A DNA stretch of 64,000 nt from Haliotis asinina (lineage: Eukaryota; Mollusca; Gastropoda; Lepetellida; Haliotidae): assembly GCF_037392515.1 (NCBI RefSeq), contig NC_090291.1, forward strand, positions 35,549,001 to 35,613,000, written 5' to 3'. A program made the position numbers and the translations under genes. Under the pieces are notes generated by a model. That model was given only the letters and a program-made list of their open reading frames with translations, ran no database searches and was not told the origin of the DNA. Below are positions 10,401 through 57,546 of this stretch, in pieces (within the stretch, counting starts at the first letter, position 1; every line of letters begins with the position of its first letter).

Positions 10401-13400
10401 CAACCCGACACCGCATAGAAAAACTAACGCCAAGCAGTGATGGTATGCAAAAGAAACTAGACAGCCAAACGAGCAGCGAACCGGAACACCCAGTTATTCG
10501 ACAGAGCGTTAGGAAAAACTTGGACCCAGGTTAGACGTGAATGACACAGTGCTGTTTTGTCAGCAACCTGTTAATGCGCATCTGTTAATACCTCCCATAA
10601 GTGATCGATCAGCCAAATATATATTATTTCATAAATATTGATACATAATGGTAATTACTTGGTTTTAAGTCACGTGATACTATATTTATTGTTGATTTTG
10701 ATGTACTGCACTTCAACGATCATTCTCATCTGATCATAATATTTGGATAATTTCTTTTATGTACATTACAGAACGAAGAACGGGAAATGGAGCTTATCGA
10801 CGCTCATGTAACCTTTCGATTTGTGAAAATAAATGATTCTCTGATACACCTGTTGTATGAATGTTTGTGTATACATGAATTCATCATAAACATTAAATGT
10901 ATTGCATATCCATTCGGCAAAAATACCAGTTATATATGCATTTAGCTTATGCATATGAACTTTCGTACCATAAGGGCAATGCATTGTTACGTTCGGATCT
11001 CACCCCTGAATCAATAAACTGAAAGTCAGTTATTACATTTCATATGTGTCGTTTCAGGAACTTCAGTAAAAGGATTTGCTAATGTGAACATACATGTTGG
11101 GAAACGTATAAAGAAAACAACGTAACGTTCAATAATTATACGTTCATTATTTACATATTTCATATTGTTTTCATTATTTAATTTCAAGGGGGCAGGGGGT
11201 AAAGCTTTTGGTCCGTCCACTATACTCACCCAGAGAGAAGGGGATAAATTCATCTTTCTTTACAACCTTGCCAGTGTCGTCAAGGAAACGGTCAGGCCGG
11301 AAGTTTTCTGGGTCACCCCATACATCCGGGTCTTGGAGGACGGAATTAAGCATCACTAAGACTGGGACACCTTTTGGGAACGTGTATCCCCTGAACTGGA
11401 CATCGTGGGGAACGGTGTGGGGGACCGATGTTGGGGCGATATCAGCTCGTCTCAACACTTCCATGATGGTTGCCTCCATGTAGGGCAGGTTTGTCTTGTC
11501 TTTCATGGAGGGCAGTCTGCTCTGGCCAATGTTTTCTTTGATCTCCTGAAAACACTTTTCCTGTACATCATGGTTATGGAGTAAATAGATCAGTGTCCAA
11601 CGTATTATAGTGGCTGTGGTATCTGTTCCGGCTGCGAAGAGGTCTGCAACAACCATGACCAAGTTCTCAACTGAAAAAGAACATCAAACTCAATACAAAT
11701 CTCCCTCACTGACATGAGACTGAGTGAGTTATTTAATATTTACAGTCATGTTGGTATTTCAGCTACGTGTGATTAAAATAAGCCATACTGGAATAATTTA
11801 TAATATCATATCACGTCGCGGAAAGATGGTAGAACAGCTACAATGTGACAGTTACAGAAATAGATATAAAACTAAAGGATTAATCACGCAATCATAGGCT
11901 GGATTGGATCTGAAAGAATTAGCCGACAACAACGTATCTGTAGCAGATAAATCACTACCTTGATGGACACCCTAATCTTGATTACAATGTTCAGACAGAG
12001 CTAAATCCACATTGGCTTCAAATTGCCTGTCAGATAAAAAGTGCGATATGTACGTAGACAAACGGCTATCAAATTCCAAATCTTTGAGTGAGTTAAGATT
12101 TTACACCGTATCGGCAGCCACATGTACACAGCGATGAGAACAATTTGAACAGCGTTAAAGGTCTGTCTACCGAGGACAGTAAAACACAGGTAGGTATTAA
12201 ACAAACTAAAAAATCTGTTAAATTACCATGCTTCCTTGTTGTGTCATTAAAGGAAATCAATGAATATGATTTTTACGCACCCTTTATAATCAGATTTATA
12301 TGTTAACAGCTGATACCTAGGTTTGACCTGATGTGTGATTTATCTCATATGCACAAGGTTCAAGGTTTGGTGAAATGTTTTTTTGTTTTTTTGTTTGTTA
12401 GTTTTGTTGTTTTGTTTGTTTGTTTGGGGGTTTTTTGTTGTTGTTTTTTCAGACCTGAACATATTCACAGTTATCCTCTCATATAATGATTTAAACACGA
12501 AACATATCGAGGAAAGCCACTAATTCGGCATTTAAACTGTCAAATACCAGAACAAGAAATCAAGTTTAGTTTACGTGGTGCTTACAGTCTAAGGTCGTCT
12601 TCTCTTCCTTTTCTTTCCGAAGTCGCATTTCCTTGATGTAGGCGTGGATGAAGCCGTCCACATTATCCCCGTCGTGGTTCTGCAAATGATCCTTTATCAT
12701 AGGGTCAATGAGAACTGAAATGATGGTTTGGATATTCTGTACAGTCTCCTTAAATTTAAATCGATCCCCTGGCAGAAAGCGCACTATTGGCAGCACGTTT
12801 AACACCTCAGACGAACCCAAGTTGGCAATATAATCTTCCATTGCTTTCAAAACTTTCACGAATAGCGGGTCGGTATATTCAAATCGCTTGCTGAACATGG
12901 TGGAGCAGATGACATTGCATACTGCGTTATGCACCAGGCGTTTGCAGTCAAACCCTTGTCCTCGTTCTGTCTCCAAAGCCTCGACAAGGTTTGTGACCTC
13001 TTCGTGTATTTTGTCCTCCATGATGTTCCTTCCCGCTCCAAACTCCCTGAGAGTGTTGACTGCGAATCGTCTTTGTTCGTACCAGAGCGCTCCCGAGGTC
13101 CCTGTCAGACCTGTCAAGGAAGAGGAACAGAATGTGTTACCACAAACATTTTCTCATTTAAAATGCAAGCATAACGGTTGGCTTATTCAGAATCATCTTC
13201 TGAAAGTCTTCACCTGTCAATTTGAAAACGAAATTTTTTCTGGTGGAATCATTAAGTATCTCACTTGCCATTTCTTTCCAGGGATACAGGTGGAGAATAT
13301 TTCTGAAATAACAAATAACCACATACTCTGGTATGCATGGAACATAAGGCAGTCTTGAATTGGTAACAATTATTCCTTAATCATATGTTATCGAACTCGA

Positions 13401-13886
13401 TTAATTTCTATGGATGACGCCAACTTAGCCACAGTGTTTTTTTACTTTACTGACTAACCATTTGCAACCAGAGAAATCATTTACGAATCCTTCACCTCGT
13501 GGGAAGCAACTTTTTCTTGTTATGGAACTTAACAGATTGTGACTCATACCTTTCCCTTTCACAATGTAGTCATTAAACGTTGAGTGAGGCCTGTCAGAGA
13601 AAACGTCGGCGTTCTTGACAATGGCGTCTCTCAGAGTGTTGTAGCCGTTTAGGACGATGAGAGGTTTGTGAAACATGTAAACACTGAAGATGTCGCCATA
13701 TTGTTGCCTGAGTTTCTGAAACGCGATTCTAGGATCGGAGTCCATGGATAGGACATTCCCCACAAACGGGAGGAGAGGAGGGCCGGGTGGAAACCCAGAA
13801 GGTCGCCGCATTAGCAACCATAACAAAACTAGGATGGTCACACACAGCAACACATATGCAGAACTGCAGGCGAATAGATCCATCAT
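7317..13886 (-). CDS. cytochrome P450 gene 1, CYP2-like (clan 2), 4 exons, 493 aa
   Basis: Exons on the minus strand are 13886-13550, 13110-12586, 11670-11230 and 7495-7317. All three introns are phase 1 with GT...AG ends (439, 915 and 3734 bp). The spliced frame is open for 493 codons and ends in TAA, the usual length for a microsomal P450. Visible motifs by residue: N-terminal hydrophobic anchor 11-26, PPGPP hinge 33-37, helix C WxxxR W122/R126, helix I AGTDTT 301-306, ExxR 358-361, PDRF 413-416 and haem loop FSLGRRACMG 432-441 with the thiolate Cys439. These make it a haem monooxygenase anchored in the ER, expected to work with P450 reductase. The substrate cannot be read from sequence. 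The start was chosen at ATG 13886 because it aligns with the starts of genes 2 and 3. Introns 2 and 3 are filled with LINE and SINE debris, but the coding exons look intact. Confidence 0.93.
7544..7762 (-). mobile_element. old LINE 3' end fragment in P450 gene 1 intron 3
   Basis: Begins with AGTGAGTTAA, then CATCACATCGGCAACAT...CATCGTGACGTGAAC and a diverged match to the LINE 3' UTR on the minus strand, ending near GGCAACAATACAATATAAAC. It is more diverged than the other tails, so it is an older insertion. Confidence 0.65.
7871..8045. repeat. dispersed ~150-170 bp repeat unit (CTGCTCCGGAA type)
   Basis: Contains TTCAAAAGTTCTGCTCC, TTTGGAAAC...TTCAGAAATCCAAAACTGCC, and GATTTTCGAGTTTTGCTCCGG. 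The same words in the same order occur twice more at 9701-10070. It is non-coding and lies within intron 3 of P450 gene 1. Confidence 0.7.
8083..8820 (-). mobile_element. LINE fragment (ORF2 endonuclease end to linker)
   Basis: Minus-strand homology to the I-like LINE runs from the endonuclease segment ([12 protein letters not shown]..., [12 protein letters not shown]) through the basic linker ([32 protein letters not shown]) to SDNGED just before the RT. It is full of stops and frameshifts. It has neither tail nor 5' end, so it is a decayed internal fragment. It lies in P450 gene 1 intron 3. Confidence 0.85.
8991..9261 (+). mobile_element. SINE-like dispersed repeat, (ACTC)n tail
   Basis: Runs from ACCCGTGAAGGTCCCGGGG through TTGTCGTAAGAGGCGACTAA and GGTTCCCAATTGCGCAGATC to ATATAGCTGGAATATTGCTG and an ACTCACTCACTTACTC tail. 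Copies or pieces lie at 17791-18041, 35042-35236 (minus) and 36808-36930 (minus). It has no coding capacity. Its last 50 bp resemble the LINE 3' end. I recognise it from memory as a very abundant Haliotis repeat, but I have no database name. Confidence 0.8.
9701..10070. repeat. tandem pair of ~171-bp dispersed repeat units
   Basis: Unit starts are at about 9701 and 9872, with a partial third near 10048. Each has a TCTGCTCCG/CTCTGCTTTGG start, a CAGTCAAAGTC/CAGTCACAGTC word, AACGCAAAA, TTTATTCA and AAAGGCACYAGTTC. The relative at 7871-8045 is in the same intron. No coding frame is conserved between units. Confidence 0.72.
10071..11229. other. remaining intron 3 sequence of P450 gene 1
   Basis: AT-rich sequence with no repeat family I can name. 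An open frame of about 120 codons at 10012-10383 has no recognisable domain and starts inside a repeat, so I do not call it a gene. Confidence 0.45.
11230..11670 (-). CDS. P450 gene 1 exon 3
   Basis: Codes for residues 288-434. The acceptor is TTTTTCAG|TTGAGAAC and the donor is CTGG|GTGAG. It carries helix I AGTDTT (oxygen activation), helix K EVLRR (ExxR), the [11 protein letters not shown] meander block and the start of the haem loop (FSLG). The intron cuts the haem motif between Gly435 base 1 and base 2, as in gene 2. Confidence 0.93.
11722..12280 (-). mobile_element. nested old LINE fragments in P450 gene 1 intron 2
   Basis: 11722-11956 is a diverged LINE 3' UTR with a GAGTGAGTTA tail. 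11957-12087 and 12206-12280 match the RT segment of ORF2 (same region as 4215-4400). 12088-12205 is another short 3' tail (TGAGTGAGTTAAGATTTTAC...) that splits this RT segment. All are minus strand, the same direction as the host gene. The divergence is clearly higher than in copies B to D. Confidence 0.7.
12373..12450. repeat. T/G-rich low-complexity tract
   Basis: Runs of T with TTTG and TTG repeats lie in intron 2 of P450 gene 1. On the transcribed strand this is A/C-rich. No element ends are visible. Confidence 0.85.
12586..13110 (-). CDS. P450 gene 1 exon 2
   Basis: Codes for residues 113-287. The acceptor is CCTTGACAG|GTCTGAC and the donor is AGACT|GTAAGC. It holds the helix C motif WYEQRRF, which contacts the haem propionate, and the conserved [12 protein letters not shown] and [12 protein letters not shown] blocks of helices D to F. 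Its length (525 bp) and phase equal gene 2 exon 2. Confidence 0.93.
13550..13886 (-). CDS. P450 gene 1 exon 1
   Basis: Codes for residues 1-112 plus the first base of codon 113: signal anchor, [18 protein letters not shown] hinge, [11 protein letters not shown] and the NADVFSDRP segment before helix B. The donor is AAAG|GTATGAG at 13549. An in-frame ATG lies upstream at 13991, but the homologues start at the equivalent of 13886. Confidence 0.92.
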
Positions 13887-14370
13887 TGCCTCCTCTTGTA
13901 ACGTTCTGAAATCGTGCCTTTTCCAAGCGAAAGAGGTCACCATTTGTTGTGGGAATATTGTTACCTTGTGCAACCGCATGCGTCGTTGCACAACGAACGC
14001 TAAATAAGCTACACTAGTCCTTGAATGTGTCCGAGTTCTGCCTCAGGAAATACGACACTAGAAATTAACTCAGCTGTGACTCAGCCTAATCTCGCGATAT
14101 GCACCACAGCATCTGCCATGAAAAAAGCCCCAAATAGAGAGATAACACATAATACGTATCATTTACCAATAGAAGTATATTAGTGCCCAGGGAAACACCA
14201 TCTGCCATAGAAATGTTCTATTGAGTAGACACTTTCACCTACGAAGAAGATTTGTCTAATTAACACAGACAGCGTGTGAGCCACATGACTATAATAGTTT
14301 CACATTGAAAACAAACAGTATGAATACAGTCAATAAAGGACCACAACGTGCCTAAATCGCTGTCTTTTTG
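13887..14370. other. 5' flank of P450 gene 1
   Basis: Holds the presumed promoter and 5' UTR of the minus-strand P450. I see no convincing TATA box in a sensible place and cannot fix the transcription start. Confidence 0.45.
14076..14085 (+). promoter_or_regulatory. possible antioxidant-response-like site upstream of P450 gene 1
   Basis: GTGACTCAGC fits the core RTGACnnnGC bound by Nrf2/Maf-type factors. It sits about 190 bp upstream of the start codon of P450 gene 1. A ten-base match is weak evidence, and I saw no equivalent upstream of gene 2 or the gene 3 exon. Confidence 0.25.
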
Positions 14371-17790: not shown

Positions 17791-18041
17791 GCGGTAGAAT
17801 AGGCCTTCAGCAACCCATGCTTGCCATGAAAGGCGACATGCTTGTCTTAAGAGGCGACTAACGGGATAGGGTGGTCAGGCTCGTGGACATGGTTGATAAA
17901 TGTCATCGGTTCCCAATTGCGCAGATCGATGCTCGTGTTGTTGATCACTGGATTGTCTGGTCCAGACTCGATTTTTTACAGACCGCAACCCAATAGCTGT
18001 AATATTGCTGATTGCGGCGTAAGACTAAACTCACTCACTCA
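17791..18041 (+). mobile_element. SINE-like dispersed repeat, second copy
   Basis: Same order of words as the copy at 8991-9261 (GTAGAATAGGCCTTCAG, GTCTTAAGAGGCGACTAAC, GGTTCCCAATTGCGCAGATC, GGATTGTCTGGTCCAGACTC). It ends in GCGGCGTAAGACTAAACTCACTCACTC. The first 15-20 bp of the other copy are missing or diverged here. Confidence 0.82.
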
Positions 18042-18372: not shown

Positions 18373-19235
18373 TCAAACCTCTCTCCAACACCTTTCGGGA
18401 CTCCATGGCAATGGGGAGCACAGAATCTGTCCTCTGCCTCTTAGCTGGTGTCCGGGAGACCGATGCCTCAGATGGCTGAGGAGTGGTGCCTCGGGAGAGA
18501 TGACTTTTCGAACTGGAGTGTCCTGAGATATGGTAGGCTGAGGTGTTGCTTTCCAGAAGTAGGCAGACTTTATTTCAGCTGGCATGATTCCAAGTGAAGT
18601 GCTCAAGTCTTGTGTCAATTGTAACAAATCAACTAGGACTGGCAGTCCATCTAGTCCTGGTTGTGCTGGACCTTCACGACCTGCAAACTCGATGAGCTTC
18701 TTTGACAAGATTAATGATAAATAGGTGTCCTTTAGGGTGTTGAGATTTAGACTGGTATGAAGCCACTTCCAGCTGCTCCATTCTCCTCCCATGCTGGGCT
18801 GGAGAGGGTCATATGGCTCGATATATACATTCGTCGAACAAGTCATCCTCACTGGGTGCCCTAATGGAAACTGCGTCATCTGCATCAACATTATCTGTTC
18901 TGTGCTGCGTGTCCTCTGTACCCCAACCACTTAACCACTGCTTCCTTGTCCTTTTGTAGAACTGGTCAAGGTTCCCGTCATCTAGCCAGTTGATAACTAG
19001 GGATCTTGCAGCCCTAGATAGCTCAGTCTGTTCGCTGTCCAACTGCCTTGCCATAATCCTGCGGCCTTAGGGTAAACCAGTAGCATTGGATCTCCTTCAG
19101 CAGAGCAGCTGTCCACATGCACCTTTAAGTCCAAGGCTCTTCTAAAGGTCTTTCCGTCGTCACACCATGGTTTCTCAACTCCCTCCTTGAGCCACATTTT
19201 TTGTCGCACATCCAACATTGATGCTTGGAAGCCAT
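18373..19235 (-). pseudogene. broken unknown ORF with C2H2-like zinc-finger start
   Basis: From the ATG at 19235 the minus strand reads MASKHQCWMCDKKCGSRREL. Further on it reads TFRRALDLKVHVDSCSAEG, reminiscent of a C2H2 finger. It then reads ARQLDSEQTELSRAARSLV and a longer acidic/proline-rich part down to 18373 (LIEFAGREGPAQPGLDGL). The pieces lie in different frames, so it is broken. It stands immediately left of the Gypsy-bearing tandem array and on the same strand. It could be a gag-like part of an element or an unrelated host-gene relic. I do not recognise the family. Confidence 0.4.
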
Positions 19236-19470
19236 ATCTATAAACACATCAAAGATCACCATCCATGTAGTTGGTACCGAGGCAAGCATACTTTTCATCT
19301 ATTTTATGAGTTATAACAAAGCACTAAGGTTATCAATGCATCTTTCCGAAACGTACACCAGTTTTACACTATGTTGTTCGTGTATACCCATCAAGTAAGT
19401 GTTAAGTATTTACAGTATATCCTGACATGCCAGAAGTCAAGAAATCCTATCGATCCTACATGAAAACCAG

Positions 19471-21355
19471 TATCCTAGAAAACTCAGTCCCTTGTGTTTG
19501 AATTGAGTGTGTCGACCAACTTTCATCCATCCGTAATTTCCATTGTATAAAATCCAAAAGGGACTGGTCCAATACAACTAAAGAAGCATAAGGTCCAAAA
19601 GACAGACAACAGAAAAAGTATACCACTGACTCTCAGATAACTCCAGATTTCCATCAAGTTCAAGGTGAGTGGACATAGTATCATTAATGCTTTGCCGTAT
19701 GATAAGTGTTCCTGCCCAGAATGTGATGCCTTGTAAAAGATTTCTCTTTGGGGTACCATTTCCAAGTAATCATCAATTGTTTATCATCCAATATTTAATA
19801 ACACCATGAACATATTTACAACAGCAGAAGATAAGAAAGCTTCCGCCAGTAATTCAGATTTGCTTCTGCACCTTGGAAATCCAGGTGGGCAGGCTCTTCC
19901 AGTGGTATGGAAGTAACCTGTTAACATGAATAGCCTTGGCTAACTGCTTTGGTGACTTTTTCACCGGATAAGTAAGGTCATCGAATCTCTTACTTATCAT
20001 GTAAGGTCCTGTCCAAGGACAGGTCAGTTTACTACACTCTTGGACAGGTCAGTTTACTGCAAGCACCAATCTTTCTGACAGGAGTTAACAACCAGACAGG
20101 CTGAACAGTGTTGAAGATTTTCTTCTTTGCCTTCAGATCATAGTGCCTCTTTTGATAAATCGACATCTGTTTGAGATGTGCCCGACCAATTGCATTAACA
20201 ATCTTATCTTTCAGATTAGTTACATACTCTGAAGACCTGTCTATCCTTTCTGGATCTCTGTATCTCACAACCAAGGCTTGCATGGGGAGAGTTACTTCTA
20301 TTTCCAACATCATCAGGTTTGGTGTCAAGCCAGTTGAAGCGTGTTTGGATGCTCTGTAAGCCATGAGCAGCTGGGACAGATATTCATCCCAAGTTCTTTG
20401 GTCTTTTTGTAAATACACGGTGAGCATCTGAATTAAAGTGCAAATAAAACGCTCGACATTTCCATTAGACTGTGGATACAAGCTTGTTGATCTTGTTTTC
20501 TCTATGTGTCCACAATTCACACTTCTTTGAACAATGAAGATTCAAAGTTTGATCCTTGGTCTGAGTGAACCTGTAGTGGGATACCAAAACGTGAAACAAA
20601 GTTGTCAACGAATGCCTTTGCCACAGACCTCGCCTAATGGTTAGGTAATGCAACTGCCTCTACCCATTTTGTGAACTGGTCAGCCATTACTAAGATGTAT
20701 CTGTTGCCAGTGTGACTTTTGGGTAATGGACCCATGATGTCCATAGCAACACGTTCCATAGGCTCGCCAGATAAGTAACTGTCCACTGGAGCTCTCTGGT
20801 GGACGGTTGTTTTCTTTGGCACGCAATGGTCGCATCATGCACAGTACTCGGTAACATCATCTTTCATCATTGGCCAGTAAAAAGATTGCTGTACTCTACC
20901 CAAGTTTCGTCTCCACCCAAGTGACCCGAAGAAGGGATATCATGATGCTATTTCATGGCGTGTTCTGACCACCACCTGCAATGCTGTAACGTTCTCATCT
21001 TCAGATTGCCATTTCCGGAAAAGGCATTCCCATGTGAATCTTGAGTCTGTCCCATTGGCGCCACAGTGTTTTGGTGAAAGATGTCATATGAGACACTGCT
21101 TCCCATTCTAGCCTTCGCTGGTTCTCCTCAACAGAAGCTAAAAGCAGTCCAGTATCTTGATCTTGTAACTGTGTCTGGCGGATCTCTTGTGGATCCCAGC
21201 CATCAAGCAATCTCATGCCATCTTTGCTGTGCATTGTTGTTCACTAGTCTTAGCTCTGATTACATGTCTACTCACTTCTGGACTGACGGAATCTCTGCAA
21301 GGAATTCACTACCTGGAATAGGTTCACATTCCTCATCTACTGACTGATGTTCTTG
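19471..21355 (-). mobile_element. Ty3/Gypsy pol fossil, array unit 1
   Basis: Minus-strand parts in order are a pre-integrase linker (21234-21001, QTQLQDQDTGLLLASVEENQ), an integrase core start (20822-20634, MERVAMDIMGPLPKSHTGNRY and ADQFTKWVEAVALP), and the integrase core end and C-terminal part (20520-20032, PQSNGNVERF, LLMAYRASKHASTGLTP). Reverse transcriptase, gag and LTRs are not present in the unit. It is a broken, partial fossil with several breaks. Its decay predates the tandem copying because all four units share it. Confidence 0.85.
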
Positions 21356-21798
21356 CCAATAACCTGCCTACGAAAATCACCGCCTCTCGGGGAAGAAATA
21401 CGATGTATTTCACTTTAAAACGCCCGATCGGCGAAAAACATAACATTACCGTAGTCGCTAGATATTCCGCTCTCGTTCTACAACCTCTCAAATGAAATAG
21501 GTTATTCTTCTACCTGCAATACGTGACTTTATTGGGAAAATAGCGGTGATCGAGTCCACCATGTTTGTCTTTCATCCTCAATAGGTTTGCACCAACGACG
21601 AGCTGCTCTCTGATTGGTCAAAAATAAAACACCTGTATTATTTTCATTTCGTGGTGCGATATATCGTGTTGGTGCGAGCCTATTGAGGGTGAAGGTCAAA
21701 CATGGTGGACTCGATCACTTGTTTTTTTCGGGTGTTATAAAGTGAAATACATCGTATTTCTTCCCGAGAGGCGGTGATTTTCGTAGGCAGGTTATTGG
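21356..21798. mobile_element. 443-bp foldback/MITE-like element, unit 1
   Basis: Outer arms start CCAATAACCTGCCTACGAAA and end with its reverse complement. They match over about 70 bp with only a few differences. A second inner pair of arms of about 50 bp (GTGATCGAGTCCACCATG and its reverse complement) flanks a short loop. About 115 bp between outer and inner arm exists only on the left side. There is no coding capacity. It sits at the 5' side of the pol fossil. Confidence 0.85.
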
Positions 21799-22039
21799 TG
21801 TACAAACGAAAACGTTGTCTTTTCCCGAGTTCCAAGCAAAGTTACCCGGTACATAGAAGACCGATTTTGATAATTTTGGATTCATTCGAAAGGGAATTTA
21901 TCTGGCTTTATTTCAGTAAGAATTGCGGCTGTATGTTCCACAATTTCCTACCCAAGATTCGCCCGCAATCAAGAGTGGGGTGTTCGACAACTTTGTGCGT
22001 GTTACATCCCTTTCCTTCTGTATATGTGTATGGATATCA

Positions 22040-23924
22040 TATCCTAGAAAACTCAGTCCCTTGTGTTTGAATTGAGTGTGTCGACCAACTTTCATCCATC
22101 CGTAATTTCCATTGTATAAAATCCAAAAGGGACTGGTCCAATACAACTAAAGAAGCATAAGGTCCAAAAGACAGACAACAGAAAAAGTATACCACTGACT
22201 CTCAGATAACTCCAGATTTCCATCAAGTTCAAGGTGAGTGGACATAGTATCATTAATGCTTTGCCGTATGATAAGTGTTCCTGCCCAGAATGTGATGCCT
22301 TGTAAAAGATTTCTCTTTGGGGTACCATTTCCAAGTAATCATCAATTGTTTATCATCCAATATTTAATAACACCATGAACATATTTACAACAGCAGAAGA
22401 TAAGAAAGCTTCCGCCAGTAATTCAGATTTGCTTCTGCACCTTGGAAATCCAGGTGGGCAGGCTCTTCCAGTGGTATGGAAGTAACCTGTTAACATGAAT
22501 AGCCTTGGCTAACTGCTTTGGTGACTTTTTCACCGGATAAGTAAGGTCATCGAATCTCTTACTTATCATGTAAGGTCCTGTCCAAGGACAGGTCAGTTTA
22601 CTACACTCTTGGACAGGTCAGTTTACTGCAAGCACCAATCTTTCTGACAGGAGTTAACAACCAGACAGGCTGAACAGTGTTGAAGATTTTCTTCTTTGCC
22701 TTCAGATCATAGTGCCTCTTTTGATAAATCGACATCTGTTTGAGATGTGCCCGACCAATTGCATTAACAATCTTATCTTTCAGATTAGTTACATACTCTG
22801 AAGACCTGTCTATCCTTTCTGGATCTCTGTATCTCACAACCAAGGCTTGCATGGGGAGAGTTACTTCTATTTCCAACATCATCAGGTTTGGTGTCAAGCC
22901 AGTTGAAGCGTGTTTGGATGCTCTGTAAGCCATGAGCAGCTGGGACAGATATTCATCCCAAGTTCTTTGGTCTTTTTGTAAATACACGGTGAGCATCTGA
23001 ATTAAAGTGCAAATAAAACGCTCGACATTTCCATTAGACTGTGGATACAAGCTTGTTGATCTTGTTTTCTCTATGTGTCCACAATTCACACTTCTTTGAA
23101 CAATGAAGATTCAAAGTTTGATCCTTGGTCTGAGTGAACCTGTAGTGGGATACCAAAACGTGAAACAAAGTTGTCAACGAATGCCTTTGCCACAGACCTC
23201 GCCTAATGGTTAGGTAATGCAACTGCCTCTACCCATTTTGTGAACTGGTCAGCCATTACTAAGATGTATCTGTTGCCAGTGTGACTTTTGGGTAATGGAC
23301 CCATGATGTCCATAGCAACACGTTCCATAGGCTCGCCAGATAAGTAACTGTCCACTGGAGCTCTCTGGTGGACGGTTGTTTTCTTTGGCACGCAATGGTC
23401 GCATCATGCACAGTACTCGGTAACATCATCTTTCATCATTGGCCAGTAAAAAGATTGCTGTACTCTACCCAAGTTTCGTCTCCACCCAAGTGACCCGAAG
23501 AAGGGATATCATGATGCTATTTCATGGCGTGTTCTGACCACCACCTGCAATGCTGTAACGTTCTCATCTTCAGATTGCCATTTCCGGAAAAGGCATTCCC
23601 ATGTGAATCTTGAGTCTGTCCCATTGGCGCCACAGTGTTTTGGTGAAAGATGTCATATGAGACACTGCTTCCCATTCTAGCCTTCGCTGGTTCTCCTCAA
23701 CAGAAGCTAAAAGCAGTCCAGTATCTTGATCTTGTAACTGTGTCTGGCGGATCTCTTGTGGATCCCAGCCATCAAGCAATCTCATGCCATCTTTGCTGTG
23801 CATTGTTGTTCACTAGTCTTAGCTCTGATTACATGTCTACTCACTTCTGGACTGACGGAATCTCTGCAAGGAATTCACTACCTGGAATAGGTTCACATTC
23901 CTCATCTACTGACTGATGTTCTTG
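22040..23924 (-). mobile_element. Ty3/Gypsy pol fossil, array unit 2
   Basis: Same parts as unit 1 shifted by 2569 bp: linker 23803-23570, integrase core 23391-23203 and 23089-22601. Broken. Shares its few variants with unit 1. Confidence 0.85.
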
Positions 23925-24367
23925 CCAATAACCTGCCTACGAAAATCACCGCCTCTCGGGGAAGAAATACGATGTATTTCACTTTAAAACGCCCGATCGG
24001 CGAAAAACATAACATTACCGTAGTCGCTAGATATTCCGCTCTCGTTCTACAACCTCTCAAATGAAATAGGTTATTCTTCTACCTGCAATACGTGACTTTA
24101 TTGGGAAAATAGCGGTGATCGAGTCCACCATGTTTGTCTTTCATCCTCAATAGGTTTGCACCAACGACGAGCTGCTCTCTGATTGGTCAAAAATAAAACA
24201 CCTGTATTATTTTCATTTCGTGGTGCGATATATCGTGTTGGTGCGAGCCTATTGAGGGTGAAGGTCAAACATGGTGGACTCGATCACTTGTTTTTTTCGG
24301 GTGTTATAAAGTGAAATACATCGTATTTCTTCCCGAGAGGCGGTGATTTTCGTAGGCAGGTTATTGG
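23925..24367. mobile_element. foldback element, unit 2
   Basis: Exact-offset copy of the 443-bp foldback element, with the same outer and inner arms. Confidence 0.85.
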
Positions 24368-24608
24368 TGTACAAACGAAAACGTTGTCTTTTCCCGAGTT
24401 CCAAGCAAAGTTACCCGGTACATAGAAGACCGATTTTGATAATTTTGGATTCATTCGAAAGGGAATTTATCTGGCTTTATTTCAGTAAGAATTGCGGCTG
24501 TATGTTCCACAATTTCCTACCCAAGATTCGCCCGCAATCAAGAGTGGGGTGTTCGACAACTTTGTGCGTGTTACATCCCTTTCCTTCTGTATATGTGTAT
24601 GGATATCA

Positions 24609-26493
24609 TATCCTAGAAAACTCAGTCCCTTGTGTTTGAATTGAGTGTGTCGACCAACTTTCATCCATCCGTAATTTCCATTGTATAAAATCCAAAAGGG
24701 ACTGGTCCAATACAACTAAAGAAGCATAAGGTCCAAAAGACAGACAACAGAAAAAGTATACCACTGACTCTCAGATAACTCCAGATTTCCATCAAGTTCA
24801 AGGTGAGTGGACATAGTATCATTAATGCTTTGCCGTATGATAAGTGTTCCTGCCCAGAATGTGATGCCTTGTAAAAGATTTCTCTTTGGGGTACCATTTC
24901 CAAGTAATCATCAATTGTTTATCATCCAATATTTAATAACACCATGAACATATTTACAACAGCAGAAGATAAGAAAGCTTCCGCCAGTAATTCAGATTTG
25001 CTTCTGCACCTTGGAAATCCAGGTGGGCAGGCTCTTCCAGTGGTATGGAAGTAACCTGTTAACATGAATAGCCTTGGCTAACTGCTTTGGTGACTTTTTC
25101 ACCGGATAAGTAAGGTCATCGAATCTCTTACTTATCATGTAAGGTCCTGTCCAAGGACAGGTCAGTTTACTACACTCTTGGACAGGTCAGTTTACTGCAA
25201 GCACCAATCTTTCTGACAGGAGTTAACAACCAGACAGGCTGAACAGTGTTGAAGATTTTCTTCTTTGCCTTCAGATCATAGTGCCTCTTTTGATAAATCG
25301 ACATCTGTTTGAGATGTGCCCGACCAATTGCATTAACAATCTTATCTTTCAGATTAGTTACATACTCTGAAGACCTGTCTATCCTTTCTGGATCTCTGTA
25401 TCTCACAACCAAGGCTTGCATGGGGAGAGTTACTTCTATTTCCAACATCATCAGGTTTGGTGTCAAGCCAGTTGAAGCGTGTTTGGATGCTCTGTAAGCC
25501 ATGAGCAACTGGGACACATATTCATCCCAAGTTCTTTGGTCTTTTTGTAAATACACGGTGAGCATCTGAATTAAAGTGCAAATAAAACGCTCGACATTTC
25601 CATTAGACTGTGGATACAAGCTTGTTGATCTTGTTTTCTCTATGTGTCCACAATTCACACTTCTTTGAACAATGAAGATTCAAAGTTTGATCCTTGGTCT
25701 GAGTGAACCTGTAGTGGGATACCAAAACGTGAAACAAAGTTGTCAACGAATGCCTTTGCCACAGACCTCGCCTAATGGTTAGGTAATGCAACTGCCTCAA
25801 CCCATTTTGTGAACTGGTCAGCCATTACTAAGATGTATCTGTTGCCAGTGTGACTTTTGGGTAATGGACCCATGATGTCCATAGCAACACGTTCCATAGG
25901 CTCGCCAGATAAGTAACTGTCCACTGGAGCTCTCTGGTGGACGGTTGTTTTCTTTGGCACGCAATGGTCGCATCATGCACAGTACTCGGTAACATCATCT
26001 TTCATCATTGGCCAGTAAAAAGATTGCTGTACTCTACCCAAGTTTCGTCTCCACCCAAGTGACCCGAAGAAGGGATATCATGATGCTATTTCATGGCGTG
26101 TTCTGACCACCACCTGCAATGCTGTAACGTTCTCATCTTCAGATTGCCATTTCCGGAAAAGGCATTCCCATGTGAATCTTGAGTCTGTCCCATTGGCGCC
26201 ACAGTGTTTTGGTGAAAGATGTCATATGAGACACTGCTTCCCATTCTAGCCTTCGCTGGTTCTCCTCAACAGAAGCTAAAAGCAGTCCAGTATCTTGATC
26301 TTGTAACTGTGTCTGGCGGATCTCTTGTGGATCCCAGCCATCAAGCAATCTCATGCCATCTTTGCTGTGCATTGTTGTTCACTAGTCTTAGCTCTGATTA
26401 CATGTCTACTCACTTCTGGACTGACGGAATCTCTGCAAGGAATTCACTACCTGGAATAGGTTCACATTCCTCATCTACTGACTGATGTTCTTG
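24609..26493 (-). mobile_element. Ty3/Gypsy pol fossil, array unit 3
   Basis: Linker 26372-26139, integrase core 25960-25772 and 25658-25170. Broken. Shares variants with unit 4 rather than with units 1 and 2. Confidence 0.85.
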
Positions 26494-26936
26494 CCAATAA
26501 CCTGCCTACGAAAATCACCGCCTCTCGGGGAAGAAATACGATGTATTTCACTTTAAAACGCCCGATCGGCGAAAAACATAACATTACCGTAGTCGCTAGA
26601 TATTCCGCTCTCGTTCTACAACCTCTCAAATGAAATAGGTTATTCTTCTACCTGCAATACGTGACTTTATTGGGAAAATAGCGGTGATCGAGTCCACCAT
26701 GTTTGTCTTTCATCCTCAATAGGTTTGCACCAACGACGAGCTGCTCTCTGATTGGTCAAAAATAAAACACCTGTATTATTTTCATTTCGTGGTGCGATAT
26801 ATCGTGTTGGTGCGAGCCTATTGAGGGTGAAGGTCAAACATGGTGGACTCGATCACTTGTTTTTTTCGGGTGTTATAAAGTGAAATACATCGTATTTCTT
26901 CCCGAGAGGCGGTGATTTTCGTAGGCAGGTTATTGG
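26494..26936. mobile_element. foldback element, unit 3
   Basis: Exact-offset copy of the 443-bp foldback element, with no differences noticed from unit 2. Confidence 0.85.
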
Positions 26937-27177
26937 TGTACAAACGAAAACGTTGTCTTTTCCCGAGTTCCAAGCAAAGTTACCCGGTACATAGAAGACC
27001 GATTTTGATAATTTTGGATTCATTCGAAAGGGAATTTATCTGGCTTTATTTCAGTAAGAATTGCGGCTGTATGTTCCACAATTTCCTACCCAAGATTCGC
27101 CCGCAATCAAGAGTGGGGTGTTCGACAACTTTGTGCGTGTTACATCCCTTTCCTTCTGTATATGTGTATGGATATCA

Positions 27178-29062
27178 TATCCTAGAAAACTCAGTCCCTT
27201 GTGTTTGAATTGAGTGTGTCGACCAACTTTCATCCATCCGTAATTTCCATTGTATAAAATCCAAAAGGGACTGGTCCAATACAACTAAAGAAGCATAAGG
27301 TCCAAAAGACAGACAACAGAAAAAGTATACCACTGACTCTCAGATAACTCCAGATTTCCATCAAGTTCAAGGTGAGTGGACATAGTATCATTAATGCTTT
27401 GCCGTATGATAAGTGTTCCTGCCCAGAATGTGATGCCTTGTAAAAGATTTCTCTTTGGGGTACCATTTCCAAGTAATCATCAATTGTTTATCATCCAATA
27501 TTTAATAACACCATGAACATATTTACAACAGCAGAAGATAAGAAAGCTTCCGCCAGTAATTCAGATTTGCTTCTGCACCTTGGAAATCCAGGTGGGCAGG
27601 CTCTTCCAGTGGTATGGAAGTAACCTGTTAACATGAATAGCCTTGGCTAACTGCTTTGGTGACTTTTTCACCGGATAAGTAAGGTCATCGAATCTCTTAC
27701 TTATCATGTAAGGTCCTGTCCAAGGACAGGTCAGTTTACTACACTCTTGGACAGGTCAGTTTACTGCAAGCACCAATCTTTCTGACAGGAGTTAACAACC
27801 AGACAGGCTGAACAGTGTTGAAGATTTTCTTCTTTGCCTTCAGATCATAGTGCCTCTTTTGATAAATCGACATCTGTTTGAGATGTGCCCGACCAATTGC
27901 ATTAACAATCTTATCTTTCAGATTAGTTACATACTCTGAAGACCTGTCTATCCTTTCTGGATCTCTGTATCTCACAACCAAGGCTTGCATGGGGAGAGTT
28001 ACTTCTATTTCCAACATCATCAGGTTTGGTGTCAAGCCAGTTGAAGCGTGTTTGGATGCTCTGTAAGCCATGAGCAACTGGGACAGATATTCATCCCAAG
28101 TTCTTTGGTCTTTTTGTAAATACACGGTGAGCATCTGAATTAAAGTGCAAATAAAACGCTCGACATTTCCATTAGACTGTGGATACAAGCTTGTTGATCT
28201 TGTTTTCTCTATGTGTCCACAATTCACACTTCTTTGAACAATGAAGATTCAAAGTTTGATCCTTGGTCTGAGTGAACCTGTAGTGGGATACCAAAACGTG
28301 AAACAAAGTTGTCAACGAATGCCTTTGCCACAGACCTCGCCTAATGGTTAGGTAATGCAACTGCCTCAACCCATTTTGTGAACTGGTCAGCCATTACTAA
28401 GATGTATCTGTTGCCAGTGTGACTTTTGGGTAATGGACCCATGATGTCCATAGCAACACGTTCCATAGGCTCGCCAGATAAGTAACTGTCCACTGGAGCT
28501 CTCTGGTGGACGGTTGTTTTCTTTGGCACGCAATGGTCGCATCATGCACAGTACTCGGTAACATCATCTTTCATCATTGGCCAGTAAAAAGATTGCTGTA
28601 CTCTACCCAAGTTTCGTCTCCACCCAAGTGACCCGAAGAAGGGATATCATGATGCTATTTCATGGCGTGTTCTGACCACCACCTGCAATGCTGTAACGTT
28701 CTCATCTTCAGATTGCCATTTCCGGAAAAGGCATTCCCATGTGAATCTTGAGTCTGTCCCATTGGCGCCACAGTGTTTTGGTGAAAGATGTCATATGAGA
28801 CACTGCTTCCCATTCTAGCCTTCGCTGGTTCTCCTCAACAGAAGCTAAAAGCAGTCCAGTATCTTGATCTTGTAACTGTGTCTGGCGGATCTCTTGTGGA
28901 TCCCAGCCATCAAGCAATCTCATGCCATCTTTGCTGTGCATTGTTGTTCACTAGTCTTAGCTCTGATTACATGTCTACTCACTTCTGGACTGACGGAATC
29001 TCTGCAAGGAATTCACTACCTGGAATAGGTTCACATTCCTCATCTACTGACTGATGTTCTTG
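27178..29062 (-). mobile_element. Ty3/Gypsy pol fossil, array unit 4
   Basis: Linker 28941-28708, integrase core 28529-28341 and 28227-27739. Broken. The unit ends cleanly at 29746, where single-copy DNA resumes. Confidence 0.85.
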
Positions 29063-29505
29063 CCAATAACCTGCCTACGAAAATCACCGCCTCTCGGGGA
29101 AGAAATACGATGTATTTCACTTTAAAACGCCCGATCGGCGAAAAACATAACATTACCGTAGTCGCTAGATATTCCGCTCTCGTTCTACAACCTCTCAAAT
29201 GAAATAGGTTATTCTTCTACCTGCAATACGTGACTTTATTGGGAAAATAGCGGTGATCGAGTCCACCATGTTTGTCTTTCATCCTCAATAGGTTTGCACC
29301 AACGACGAGCTGCTCTCTGATTGGTCAAAAATAAAACACCTGTATTATTTTCATTTCGTGGTGCGATATATCGTGTTGGTGCGAGCCTATTGAGGGTGAA
29401 GGTCAAACATGGTGGACTCGATCACTTGTTTTTTTCGGGTGTTATAAAGTGAAATACATCGTATTTCTTCCCGAGAGGCGGTGATTTTCGTAGGCAGGTT
29501 ATTGG
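29063..29505. mobile_element. foldback element, unit 4
   Basis: Exact-offset copy of the 443-bp foldback element. About 240 bp of unit sequence follow before the array ends. Confidence 0.85.
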
Positions 29506-30703
29506 TGTACAAACGAAAACGTTGTCTTTTCCCGAGTTCCAAGCAAAGTTACCCGGTACATAGAAGACCGATTTTGATAATTTTGGATTCATTCGAAAGG
29601 GAATTTATCTGGCTTTATTTCAGTAAGAATTGCGGCTGTATGTTCCACAATTTCCTACCCAAGATTCGCCCGCAATCAAGAGTGGGGTGTTCGACAACTT
29701 TGTGCGCGTTACATCCCTTTCCTTCTGTATATGTGTATGGATATCAGTGTAGGCCTGTTGCACCCAGGACGTATTATTTTCAGCAATACAAGCCCAAGTG
29801 GTTTTTGCTATTTCACAGGGGATCTTTTACACCTTTTGGAACACTAAATTCTTAACGTAACAATCGTTATTTGTGGATGATTTCAATATTTCCTGTCGTG
29901 GTAAAAATACGCACACTATTGAAAGACAACTGCAGTTGTATTTAAACAAAATAAGTAAACGCTGTCTTGAAAACGGCTTTAAATTTTCTACGTCCAAAAC
30001 TAATTGTATACATTTTTGTAGAAAATATAAGCCGCATAACGACCCTGAACTATCTTTAAATGACACTCCAATAAAGGAGGCCAAGTTCTTGGGTTTAATT
30101 TTCTTACCGCACATTAAATCACTTAAATCTAAATGCCTGAAGGCACTAGATTTGTTGAAAGTTATTTCCAACTCAAAGTGGGGAGGGGGTCAAACGACCT
30201 TTTTACACCTAAATCGATCACCGTATATGGAGCCTGCGAAAGCAACCTTAAACTTCTTGATTCTGTCCACCATCAAGGCTTGAGACTTTGTCATGGGTCC
30301 TTCAGAACCTCACCTATTGATAGTCTTTACGTTGAGGCCGATGAACCGTGTGTTATACAACGTCGTATAAAATTGTCTTTACAATACATTACTAAATTAT
30401 ATTGTAATGAATCTAACCCTGCCTATAACTGTGCGTTCAGTCCGCTTTATGAGGATTTGTATAACAAAAAGTCTTCTCTCGCTTTGCCTCCAAGACATAG
30501 AATTAAACCATTTCTTTCTTTCGTCGGCATTGAGCTGGAAAATATATCTCCTTCCTGTCTTCTTTCTTCTGATCCTTGGCATTTGGTTAGGCCACAAGTA
30601 GACCTAACATTAACTGCATTTAAAAAATCAGAAACTAATGAATTACGATATAAACAAGAAAATAATCAATTACAAAGTAAATGTTGGAATTATATATATA
30701 TAT

Positions 30704-31165
30704 ATCATCAATTAAAACATAAATAGAGCTATTATAAATCTATATATCATCAATTAAAACATAAATAGAGCTATTATAAATCTATATATCATCAATTAAA
30801 ACATAAATAGAGTTATTATAAATCTATATATCATCAATTAAAACATAAATAGAGCTATTATAAATCTATATATCATCAATTAAAACATAAATAGGGCTAT
30901 TATAAATCTATATATCATCAATTAAAACATAAATAGGGCTATTATAAATCTATATATCATCAATTAAAACATAAATAGAGCTATTATAAATCTATATATC
31001 ATCAATTAAAACATAAATAGAGCTATTATAAATCTATATATCATCAATTAAAACATAAATAGAGATATTATAAATCTATATATCATCAATTAAAACATAA
31101 ATAGAGCTATTATAAATCTATATATCATCAATTAAAACATAAATAGAGCTATTATAAATCTATAT
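30704..31165 (+). repeat. 42-bp minisatellite, about 11 units, inside a LINE
   Basis: Unit words are TATATATCATCAATTAAAAC, ATAAATAGAGCTATTATAAATC. Units differ by single bases (AGAG/AGGG/AGTT). The parental single-copy form, CATCAATTAAAACATAAATA, occurs in LINE copy B at about 49418-49455, between the RT thumb and RNase H. The array is therefore an expansion of LINE sequence. Every unit contains stop codons. Confidence 0.93.
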
Positions 31166-31194
31166 ACACAGATGGGTCCAAGGACGGTGGCGTA

Positions 31195-34359: not shown

Positions 34360-37300
34360 CTGAAATATTTCATATTTTCAACTCTTTTTTCAGGTTCAGT
34401 GCATAGTAAATACAAAATCTGTATCACAGTGTGTGATATATAACTGGACCCACTTTTGCATTTGTATATATATTGAAAATTGTGAAAATAACAAGTAAGT
34501 TCTAATTCGTTTAGCGCAGATAGCACTGAAGGCTGTGTTGAACTCACCCAGAGAGAAGGGAATAAACTCTTCTTTCTTTACAATCTTGCCACTGTCGTCA
34601 AGGAAACGGTCAGGCCGGAAGTTGTCTGGATCACCCCAAACATCCGGGTCTTGTAGGACAGAATCAAGCATCAGTATGACAGTGGAATCTTTTGGGAATG
34701 TGTATCCGTTGAACTGGACATCATGGGGAACACCATGTGGGAGAGATGTTGGACCAATATCAGCTCGTCTCAAGACTTCCAAAATGGTTGCCTCCACGTA
34801 TGGCATGTTGACCTTGTCCTTCATGGAGGGACGCCTACTCTGGCCGATATTTTCCTGGATCTCTCGGAAACACTTTTCCTGGACTTCCGGATAGTGGAGA
34901 AAGTATACCAGTGCCCATCGAATCGTAGTGGCCGTGGTTTCCGTTCCGGCCACGAAGAGGTCCAAAATAACCATGGCCAGGTTCTCCACTGAAACAGAGT
35001 GTGTGAGTAAGTTTAGATTACAAAATATACTCAGCAACATACCAGCCAAACAGCGGCAGTCAACAAATAATCGAGTTCGGACCAGACAACCCAGTAATCA
35101 ACAGCATGACCATGGAGCCACTGGGGAATGACATGTGTCCATCGAGTCAGCGAGCCTGACCACCCGATCGCGTTAGTTGCCTCTTACAACAAGCAAGGAT
35201 TTCTGAAGATCAAATCTAACCCGGATCTTCACAGGTCGATTGAAACAGAACAGCAACCGAGTAAAATATTACTGATTATTTAACGCGTCGCATCTGTGTC
35301 GTGTTGTTCCCCTTTCCTGTATCAGGGACTGTTGATTGGGGTCGGATTATTTTGTGATTGAAACCTTAACATACATACAGTGATATTACTGAACTCGTCA
35401 CAGTGTGATAACAAAAGCAAATAAGGTAACTAAATCACCCGAGTGCTGTCAGGCATCATTTGGCAACAAACATTACTTAATTTCGTTAATGCTTACAATC
35501 TAAGGATGTCTCCACGTGTTTTTCTTTGCGAAGACGCATTTCCTTTATGTAAGCGTGTATGAAGTCGCTGACGTTATCATCTTCCTGTTTCTGCATGCGC
35601 TCTTTAATCATAGGATCTATCAGAAGCGAAATGATGGTATCTACATTCTGCACTGTCTTCTTAAATTTGAACAGATCCCCTGGCAGAAAACGCACAAAAG
35701 GCAGCACACTCAACACACCAGACGGACTCAGATTGGCCAAATTTTCGTCCATAGCTTTTAAAAATTTAATAAACAGTGGGTCTGTATATTCAAACCGTTT
35801 TCCGAAAATAATAGAGCAAATGACATTGGACACTGCGTTGTGCACCAGGCGTTTGCAGTCAAACCCTTGTCCTCGTTCTGTGTCCAAACTCTTGAGAAAC
35901 TGTGAGATTTCCTCGTGTATTTTGTCCTCCATGATGTTCCTGCCTGCTCCGAACTCCCTGAGAGTGTTAAGGGCGAAGCGTCTTTGTTCGCGCCACTGAT
36001 CACCAGAGGCTGCAGACACACCTGTACCACAAAAATAAAAAAACAAGTAATAGGTCTGGCATACTTTGGAACTTGTTCTCCAAATAATGAAATCTAGACA
36101 GGTTGAACTTGTCCTCATGATTTTAACCATGCATTTGAAAATGTAGTATCCCTTTGTTAGCTTGTGGTGGAGTCATTCCTTTCCTGTATGTGGGGTGGTG
36201 TTGGGGTTAGAGGTTCAACAGTGAAAATCATAAGGCTAACCGACAAACCTCTTGAAGTTATATTGACTCAAACATCTCAGTTGCCAACAATGTATGCACA
36301 AAGAAGTTAATTAAGTACTCTTGTAGTTTTACAATGATAGGCCTGTGTGCAGGTGGAGGACGAGGCTGTGATGATTTAAAGGAGTCTGGTACCGTATTCT
36401 TTTTTGTCCACTTTGACCCTGACTTCACCAGGGTGGGTGGTAGAAATGTGTCGTGTTCTATCAATCGGCTGGACATGCCATTCCCTGTACATTTGAAACA
36501 TTCATGTTGAACTGAATACCTTTATTTCAGCTGACATTCAGGCCGACGATCTATTACAGCATAGAATGCTTGTTCAGTATCATAGCACAGTGCGCATGCG
36601 TAAAATATGTATATTCATATGTGTAATAACATATTGGTACAATGATTCATATGTGTGTGGGTTCATAATTTACACAATGTCTTTTCGTTCGATACCATTC
36701 GTCCTTCCAATTTCTATTTCTAGTGGGAGTGTACTGCAACGAAAGCCAAAATGCTCCTAATTTTTATTATTTGTATTGAATTGATGTACTCTTTAAATCT
36801 ATACTAGTCCAGCTATATGGCGGCGGTCTGTAAATAATCGCGTCTGGACCAGACAATCCATTGATCAACAATATGAGCATCGATCTGCGCAATTGGGAAC
36901 CGATGACATGTGTCGATCAAGTGCATGTCCAGAATAGACATTATAGGTGGATATCCATGAGATAGACATCATAGGTAGATATCCATGACAGACACTATAG
37001 GTAGATATCCATGACAGACATTATAGGTAGATATCCATGAGATAGACATTATAGGTAGATATCCATGAGATAGACATGATAGGTAGATATCCATGACAGA
37101 CACTATAGGTAGATATCCATGACAGACATTATAGGTAGATATCCATGAGATAGACATTATAGGTAGATATCCATGAGATAGACATTATAGGTAGATATCC
37201 ATGACATAGACATTATAGGTAGATATCCATGACAGACACTATAGGTAGATATCCATGACAGACACTATAGGTAGATATCCATGACAGACATTATAGGTAG

Positions 37301-40300
37301 ATATCCATGAGAGAGACATGATAGGTAGATATCCATGACAGACACTATAGGTAGATATCCATGACAGACACTATAGGTAGATATCCATGACAGACACTAT
37401 AGGTAGATATCCATGACAGACATTATAGGTAGATATCCATGAGATAGACATGATAGGTAGATATCCATGACAGACACTATAGGTAGATATCCATGACAGA
37501 CATTATAGGTAGATATCCATGAGATAGACATTATAGGTAGAGATCCATGAGATAGACATTATAGGTAGATATCCATGACATAGACATTATAGGTAGATAT
37601 CCATGACAGACACTATAGGTAGATATCCATGACAGACACTATAGGTAGATATCCATGACAGACATTATAGGTGGATATCCATGACATAGACATCATAGGT
37701 AGATATCCATGACAGACACTATAGGTAGATATCCATGACAGACATTATAGGTAGATATCCATGAGATAGACATTATAGGTAGATATCCATGAGATAGACA
37801 TGATAGGTAGATATCCATGACAGACACTATAGGTAGATATCCATGACAGACATTATAGGTAGATATCCATGAGATAGACATTATAGGTAGATATCCATGA
37901 GATAGACATTATAGGTAGATATCCATGACATAGACATTATAGGTAGATATCCATGACAGACACTATAGGTAGATATCCATGACAGACACTATAGGTAGAC
38001 ATCCATGACAGACATTATAGGTAGATATCCATGAGATAGACATTATAGGTAGATATCCATGACATAGACATTATAGGTAGATATCCATGACAGACACTAT
38101 AGGTAGATATCCATGACAGACACTATAGGTAGATATCCATGACAGACATTATAGGTAGATATCCATGAGATAGACATTATAGGTAGATATCCATGAGATA
38201 GACATTATAGGTAGATATCCATGAGATTGACATTATAGGTAGATATCCATGAGATAGACATTATAGGTAGATATCCATGACATAGACATTATAGGTAGAT
38301 ATCCATGACAGACACTATAGGTAGATATCCATGACATAGACATTATAGGTAGATATTCATGACAGGCATTATAGGTAGATATCCATGACAGACACTATAG
38401 GTAGATATCCATGACATAGACATTATAAGTAGATATCCATGACATAGACATTATAGGTAGATATCCATGACATAGACATTATAGGTAGATATCCATGACA
38501 TAGACATTATAGGTAGATATTCATGACAGGCATTATAGGTAGATATCCATGAGATAGACATTATAAGTAGATATTCATGACATAGACACTATAGGTAGAT
38601 ATCCATGACAGACATTATAGGTAGATATCCATGACATAGACATCATAGGTAGATATCCATGACATAGACATTATAGGTAGATATCCATGACATAGACATT
38701 ATAGGTAGATATCCATGAGATAGACATTATAGGTAGATATTCATGACAGGCATTATAGGTAGATATCCATGAGATAGACATTGTAAGTAGATATTCATGA
38801 CATAGACACTATAGGTAGATATCCATGACAGACATTATAGGTAGATATCCATGAGATAGACATTGTAGGTAGATATCCATGACATAGACATTATAGGTAG
38901 ATATCCATGACATAGACATTATAAGTAGATATTCATGACATAGACACTATAGGTAGATATCCATGACATAGACATTATAGGTAGATATCCATGACATAGA
39001 CATTATAGGTAGATATCCATGAGATAGACATCATAGGTAGATATCCATGACATAGACATTATAGGTAGATATCCATGAGATAGACATTATAGGTAGATAT
39101 CCATGAGATAGACATTATAGGTAGATATCCATGACAGACACTAAAGGTAGATATCCATGACAGACACTATAGGTAGATATCCATGACATAGACATTATAA
39201 GTAGATATTCATGACATAGACACTATAGGTAGATATCCATGAGATAGACATTATAAGTAGATATCCATGACATAGACATTATAGGTAGATATCCATGAGA
39301 TAGACATTATAAGTAGATATCCATGACATAGACATTATAGGTAGATATCCATGACATAGACATTATAAGTAGATATTCATGACATAGACATTATAGGTAG
39401 ATATCCATGACAGACACTATAGGTAGATATCCATGACAGACACTATAGGTAGATATCCATGACATAGACATTATAAGTAGATATTCATGACATAGACACT
39501 ATAGGTAGATATCCATGAGATAGACATTATAGGTAGATATCCATGACATAGACATTATAGGTAGATATCCATGAGATAGACATTATAAGTAGATATCCAT
39601 GACATAGACACTATAGGTAGATATCCATGACATAGACATTATAAGTAGATATTCATGACATAGACACTATAGGTAGATATCCATGAGATAGACATTATAG
39701 GTAGATATCCATGACATAGACATTATAGGTAGATATCCATGACATAGACACTATAAGTAGATATCCATGACAGACACTATAGGTAGATATCCATGACATA
39801 GACATTATAAGTAGATATTCATGACATAGACACTATAGGTAGATATCCATGACATAGACACTATAAGTAGATATCCATGACAGACACTATAGGTAGATAT
39901 CCATGACATAGACATTATAAGTAGATATTCATGACATAGACACTATAGGTAGATATCCATGACATAGACATTATAGGTAGATATCCATGACATAGACATT
40001 ATAGGTAGATATCCATGAGATAGACATTATAGGTAGATATCCATGACATAGACATTATAGGTAGATATCCATGAGATAGACATTATAAGTAGATATTCAT
40101 GACATAGACATTAGTATAAATATGTTACGCATGTGTGTGATTCAGTGCAAAAGGTTAGTCCATATAACCAAAATATGCATGTCTCAAATGATGTTAACAT
40201 TTTGAGTGAATGTTTCAAAATAAACAGTCACCTAGTGTGAAGAGATTACATTTTCGACATTGGATATTGTCCCTTGTTCTATCCAAAACATATATTCATA

Positions 40301-43054: not shown

Positions 43055-43377
43055 TGTCGGCTTCTGTCTCTTTCGCGCAGCGTATGGCTTCCAAACTGAA
43101 GATGTGAAGGTATGTCTGTGACAGTATATGTTCAGTTTTATGCCGCCTCATGTGTTGTTTCAGACATCCGAATTGCAAATACCAGTGACCTAATTCAGCT
43201 TGAGCAAACATGTGACCTCAATACGTTCTTGTGATTATAAATGTTGATTCTAAAACTCAATCTGTCGGTGAATGACGTCTGTATGTTGCAGGATGATAGT
43301 CATCAAATAATATCATGCATGCGATAACATGCACGAATGCATGACTAGATTTTGCCATTTTTTTTATGTCGGGAACT
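43055..43377. other. 5' flank of P450 gene 2
   Basis: The 45 bp next to the ATG resemble the sequence before the gene 3 exon. No TATA box or clear regulatory element was recognised further out. Confidence 0.45.
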
Positions 43378-56639: not shown

Positions 56640-57145
56640 ACGAGGTTACACGATCCATTTCGTCACCACAACCACCTACCGTCACAAGTGTAATGAACTG
56701 ACAAGCATTCCGAGGCAACTTAATATATCGAAATTTCAAGATGATATGTTAAAATATCAAGTTAGTATCTACAAATTTCAAGATACTATCTTGAAATGTC
56801 AACTTAATATGTATCTTGAAATTTCAACTTAGGATCTTGAAATTTCAAGAAAAACAATTTAAAAACTGTATGTCCCTAAAAGGCTTCCGTAGACAATTGC
56901 GTTGTGTAAGGTGGCTGTGCTAAATTTAGTTTTGTCCGGGTGGCTAAGGCAGTCTCCGCCTGGGCTCCGTCTCCGTCCCACTGTTCTCGATCAAGGTTAT
57001 TACTTCAGCTAACTTTATCCCCTGTCTGAAAGAGTGGTACAGGTGGTTGCATAAAACGATACATGTGTATGCTATCGGTACCTGGATACTCATAGAACAT
57101 CTTCAATTTGGAACATACGCTGCCTGAAAAGGACAGTAGGACAGA
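56640..57145. other. 5' flank of P450 gene 3 exon with a palindrome-rich patch
   Basis: From about 56725 to 56855 the word CTTGAAATTTCAAG and its variants recur, including the perfect 23-bp hairpin ATTTCAAGATA-C-TATCTTGAAAT at about 56790-56815. Sequence just before the ATG matches the gene 2 5' UTR. Nothing else recognised. Confidence 0.6.
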
Positions 57146-57482: not shown

Positions 57483-57546
57483 GCATGTGCCGTATATGTC
57501 CTCACCACCCTACATGTCCATCACAGCTATTAACTGCAATTTCTTA

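Follow-up and report, generated by a model that had tools for sequence, protein, structure and literature searches.

Four head-to-tail 2569-bp units of mobile-element debris in Haliotis asinina, probably amplified in place

Within a 64,000-nucleotide stretch of Haliotis asinina contig NC_090291.1 (hereafter the window), 10,276 bases consist of four nearly identical units of 2569 bp, arranged head to tail in exact register and each carrying a Gypsy-like integrase fossil together with a foldback element. We favor, with a probability of about 0.68, a recent tandem duplication of transposable-element debris in place, followed by unequal exchange between the copies.

Array geometry and variation among units

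Self-comparison at an offset of 2569 delimited the array to positions 19471-29746 of the window: the match sets in at 19471, its last base is 29746, and the bases directly outside mismatch. Among identical 24-mers of the window, 2569 was also the commonest spacing above 200 bases (7579 pairs). Chance similarity cannot have produced this register. The unit starts (19471, 22040, 24609 and 27178) and the array end proposed in an earlier note on this DNA proved exact, every unit measuring 2569 bases, and self-comparison likewise confirmed that neither flank has a second copy in the window. Units and flanks, none with an assigned strand, are as follows:

19471..22039, no strand: unit 1, 2569 bp, identical to unit 2
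22040..24608, no strand: unit 2, 2569 bp, identical to unit 1
24609..27177, no strand: unit 3, 2569 bp, private variant at 25517
27178..29746, no strand: unit 4, 2569 bp, private variant at 29707
19371..19470, no strand: left flank at the boundary, single copy in the window (self-comparison, E up to 1e-8)
29747..29863, no strand: right flank, 117 bp, single copy in the window, running to a LINE-like copy

The earlier estimate of about four differences among the units corresponds to exactly four variable positions (bases given for units 1 to 4):

Unit position 900: G, G, A, A
Unit position 909: G, G, C, G
Unit position 1191: T, T, A, A
Unit position 2530: T, T, T, C

Two of these split units 1 and 2 from units 3 and 4, and one each is private to units 3 and 4. 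Pairwise, units 1 and 2 show no difference, either of them differs from unit 3 and from unit 4 at three positions, and two positions separate unit 3 from unit 4; three unit types can be distinguished in the array. Calling the units perfect is thus accurate for the first pair and slightly too strong for units 3 and 4. The AABB pattern of shared variants, also noted earlier, holds at two of the four variable sites with no conflicting site. The mean pairwise difference is 0.09% (range 0-0.12%), so the units are either young or were homogenised not long ago. That sites 900 and 909 lie close together (P 0.044, post hoc) was dropped as a meaningful feature.

Retroelement and foldback content of the unit

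Of the ten pieces used in the Pfam search, five came from the integrase stretch of unit 1; four of these five matched. The zinc-binding, core and C-terminal pieces of a retroelement integrase follow one another in order on the minus strand:

19857..20939, minus strand: Ty3/Gypsy-like integrase fossil of unit 1, made up of Pfam pieces, recurring at +2569, +5138 and +7707
20838-20939, minus strand: Integrase_H2C2 piece, Pfam E 7.6e-7, above the curated cut-off
20637-20834, minus strand: rve piece, Pfam E 0.0008, under the curated cut-off
20520-20633, minus strand: rve piece, Pfam E 0.00028, under the curated cut-off
19857-20048, minus strand: Integrase_p58_C piece, Pfam E 2.1e-6, above the curated cut-off

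A 169-aa piece from the integrase side (20035-20541) had no Pfam match at E up to 1, and a 66-aa integrase piece compared with PDB sequences returned eight weak integrase matches (best E 0.13). Because the pieces are spread over more than one reading frame and broken by stops, the stretch is a fossil, and selection on an integrase product is unlikely despite the preserved order. The Gypsy fossil of the earlier note stands as far as the integrase pieces are concerned, which are real by Pfam; its Gypsy-like label comes from sequence motifs. By these motifs the fossil may belong to Ty3/Gypsy and not to some other retroelement with an integrase; none of the matched Pfam families is peculiar to Ty3/Gypsy, and a Tf2-1-like SH3 match was weak (E 0.035). 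Direct repeats inside the unit are only 26 and 20 nt long, with no LTR among them. The retroelement content of the unit is a fragment and comprises no complete element.

The foldback occupies the same position in each unit:

21356..21798, no strand: foldback of unit 1, 443 bp, inverted repeats I1-I3
23925..24367, no strand: foldback of unit 2, same unit position as in unit 1
26494..26936, no strand: foldback of unit 3, same unit position as in unit 1
29063..29505, no strand: foldback of unit 4, same unit position as in unit 1

Long terminal inverted repeats of ~132 bases per arm account for some 264 of its 443 bases, and positions 21350-21805 are predicted to fold into a long hairpin (-146 kcal/mol, z -24, none of 100 shuffles as good) whose left arm holds ~109 extra bases. 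Together, inverted arms and predicted hairpin corroborate the foldback assignment made earlier. When units 2-4 were masked, a search of the window with unit 1 (E up to 1e-8) recovered only the foldback's own arms.

Origin of the array

In the reading that we prefer, a 2569-bp segment of intergenic mobile-element debris, comprising the Gypsy-like integrase fossil and the foldback, would have been duplicated head to tail in place, the initial duplication joining without microhomology. The resulting dimer may then have expanded, and recently so, to its present four units through slippage or in-register unequal exchange between neighbors. The in-place origin, the order of events and their recency are most likely as described, and the array is probably functionless; since we found no feature spanning a flank-unit boundary, the in-place origin is unproven. 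Microhomology at the junction is indeed zero, as the base beside each breakpoint differs between unit and flank; the same was true of 55% of 20,000 breakpoint pairs drawn at random with this spacing. Two more tandem arrays have their ends no more than 10.4 kb away on the right, which argues that the region accommodates such arrays easily.

When a single-copy segment is duplicated in tandem, two whole units result between the original flanks, and each in-register exchange then gains or loses units as wholes. The integer copy number, which the earlier note had regarded as unusual, is for this reason to be expected from in-register duplication, and we rejected it as a surprise in itself. Nor does the whole count discriminate between origins, because tandem duplication, in-register exchange, a cut multimeric circle and an assembly-graph loop would all produce whole units.

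Doubling of a dimer was rejected, since it yields ABAB by construction, unlike the observed AABB, and the variants fit the neighbor-to-neighbor duplication that the earlier note preferred. Support for that preference is nevertheless partial: in a growth model that starts from an AB dimer and applies two one-unit exchanges with uniform crossover position, the outcomes were ABBB (0.41), AAAB (0.24), AABB (0.19) and mixtures (0.16). AABB is thus the third likeliest outcome, compatible with stepwise growth though not what the model favors.

Alternatively, the assembler may have miscounted a graph loop or placed two haplotypes, such as AA and BB, one after the other, and the true array would then be of another length. 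We consider this unlikely, if well worth weighing. False duplications arise when an assembly graph is resolved wrongly or variation between haplotypes is missed, as set out in the cited passage (PMC7794651), and joining two two-unit haplotypes would be expected to give the AABB pattern. The units are almost identical, and an array of 10.3 kb falls in the range where read length matters (mean read 15.7 kb in a HiFi abalone assembly, according to the part of the source cited here; PMC9709981). However, the repeat is limited to the unit while the flanks are not repeated, and three unit types can be told apart. Moreover, the two unit groups differ at 3 positions in 2569, or about 0.12%, which is below abalone heterozygosity as given in the cited portions of two reports (0.43-1.04%, PMC6373831; 1.56%, PMC9709981), although local heterozygosity varies. 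If the array is false, the locus would exemplify a miscounted copy number in repeat-rich DNA close to P450-related genes.

A more specific version of events is doubtful: the foldback hairpin (z -24) might have stalled replication and thereby seeded the duplication. The locus would then be a macrosatellite just born, at the stage of four units, within ~21 kb that hold three tandem arrays of different unit length.

Improbable, too, is that a multimeric extrachromosomal circle of the unit formed elsewhere and was re-inserted as four units. Such an insertion would likewise yield whole units and clean flanks, and arrays have been proposed to expand through rolling-circle replication followed by re-integration, whose participation is called hypothetical in the cited passage (PMC4079207). 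However, a rolling-circle product would be expected to be uniform or pattern-repeating, and AABB with private variants fits stepwise growth better; the window contains no donor copy, and a target-site duplication is not clear, CAG ending the left flank and CAG spanning the right array end (a 3-base match). We found no specific evidence for a circle.

Helitrons begin with TC at the 5′ end and finish with CTRR after a hairpin at the 3′ end. That the unit is itself mobile, Helitron-like or with very short inverted ends, having picked up Gypsy debris and integrated in the form of a tandem array whose unit ends are the element ends, is highly improbable: its TATCC start and GGATATCA end do form a palindrome with 6-bp arms at the internal junction, and a minus-strand CTAG lies four bases inside the unit's end, but palindromes at least as strong occur at 1.5% of random junctions, canonical Helitron ends are absent from the unit ends (by eye, both strands), and the window holds no other copy. 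The palindrome was accordingly rejected as a mobile-element mark, 1.5% being weak for a feature noticed afterwards. Pattern scans of viral contigs with the unit junction and with the foldback end gave 0 matches each, which is uninformative for an animal genome.

Related arrays and genomic surroundings

Ordinary tandem segmental duplications and copy-number variants consist of whole head-to-tail units with common breakpoints and non-repeated flanks. The Haliotis array is made up of head-to-tail copies with common breakpoints, and we found no difference between it and this class; as to satellite DNA, defined by a long array or many copies, four units were counted within the window. Gypsy and foldback elements have already been described as sources of tandem arrays, as the cited passages document (PMC7004042, PMC4079207). 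In Lathyrus sativus, satellites related to Ty3/Gypsy (Ogre) elements similarly have a Ty3/Gypsy-derived tandem unit, and many Lathyrus arrays are short; unlike the present case, the short arrays described there lie within Ogre elements flanked by direct repeats, and the satellites analysed have monomers of 32-660 bp (PMC7004042, cited part), whereas the Haliotis unit is a 2.57-kb composite of broken pieces found at one place. According to the same passages satellite monomers may exceed 5 kb (PMC7004042), so the unit size alone is not exceptional. The Tetris foldback of Drosophila virilis, which seeded TIR-220, a satellite in the making, likewise combines a foldback with a tandem array gaining units by neighbor duplication, for which its authors, in the portion cited, suggest unequal crossing over (PMC4079207). 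There, the repeat lies inside the inverted repeats of the foldback (PMC4079207, as cited), whereas in the Haliotis array a larger unit carries the entire foldback as cargo. The locus contributes a further small case, one in which the composite unit is larger, and has little significance beyond itself. If the array is true, it would show satellite birth from mobile-element debris at a clean early stage, its variants recording the stepwise growth, and its copy number may vary among individuals.

The array sits in repeat-rich DNA between two P450-related stretches:

13425-14042: P450-related stretch, Pfam p450 E 5.4e-12
34396-35097: P450-related stretch, Pfam p450 E 5.5e-56

Further stretches are P450-like by resemblance (11174-11683, 12566-13153, 35486-36172, 42605-43147 and 57140-57547), and the P450-related stretches are likely a cluster or the relics of one. 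Rfam gave 0 matches in the window and ARAGORN 0 genes. In the left flank, open stretches lie on the minus strand at 18376-19298; one of them (19128-19298) has a weak C2H2 zinc-finger match under the cut-off (E 0.016), and the three others had no Pfam hit at E up to 1. SINE-like copies at 9008-9256 and 17793-18039 are 88% alike, with partial matches at 35065-35195 and 36810-36925. They resemble a repeat of abalone and related snails, of which a 23-base motif occurs exactly at 9212 and with 2 mismatches at 17996; a literature search for short pieces of a SINE motif as printed sequence found none. P450 genes and LINE-like elements are in keeping with an animal, and the SINE-like motif would suggest a vetigastropod snail.

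To the right, a LINE-like copy aligns from ~29864, 117 bp beyond the array, with a reverse-transcriptase match below the curated cut-off (RVT_1 E 2.8e-5). The two neighboring tandem arrays are:

30689-31166: 42-bp tandem array, 11.4 copies, 98% matches
36934-40113: 28-bp minisatellite, ~116 copies, 3.2 kb

The 42-bp array lies inside the LINE-like copy, whose alignment to a relative at ~63.15 kb halts at 30682 and resumes at 31122. In an ungapped self-comparison of the minisatellite, 28 and its multiples scored best, indels being expected to blur longer periods. Among identical 24-mers of the window with spacings above 200, the commonest spacing after the 2569 series was 276 (421 pairs). Further right, a mariner-like transposase piece occupies 40837-41271 (Transposase_1 E 1.1e-13, DDE_3 E 3.9e-7).
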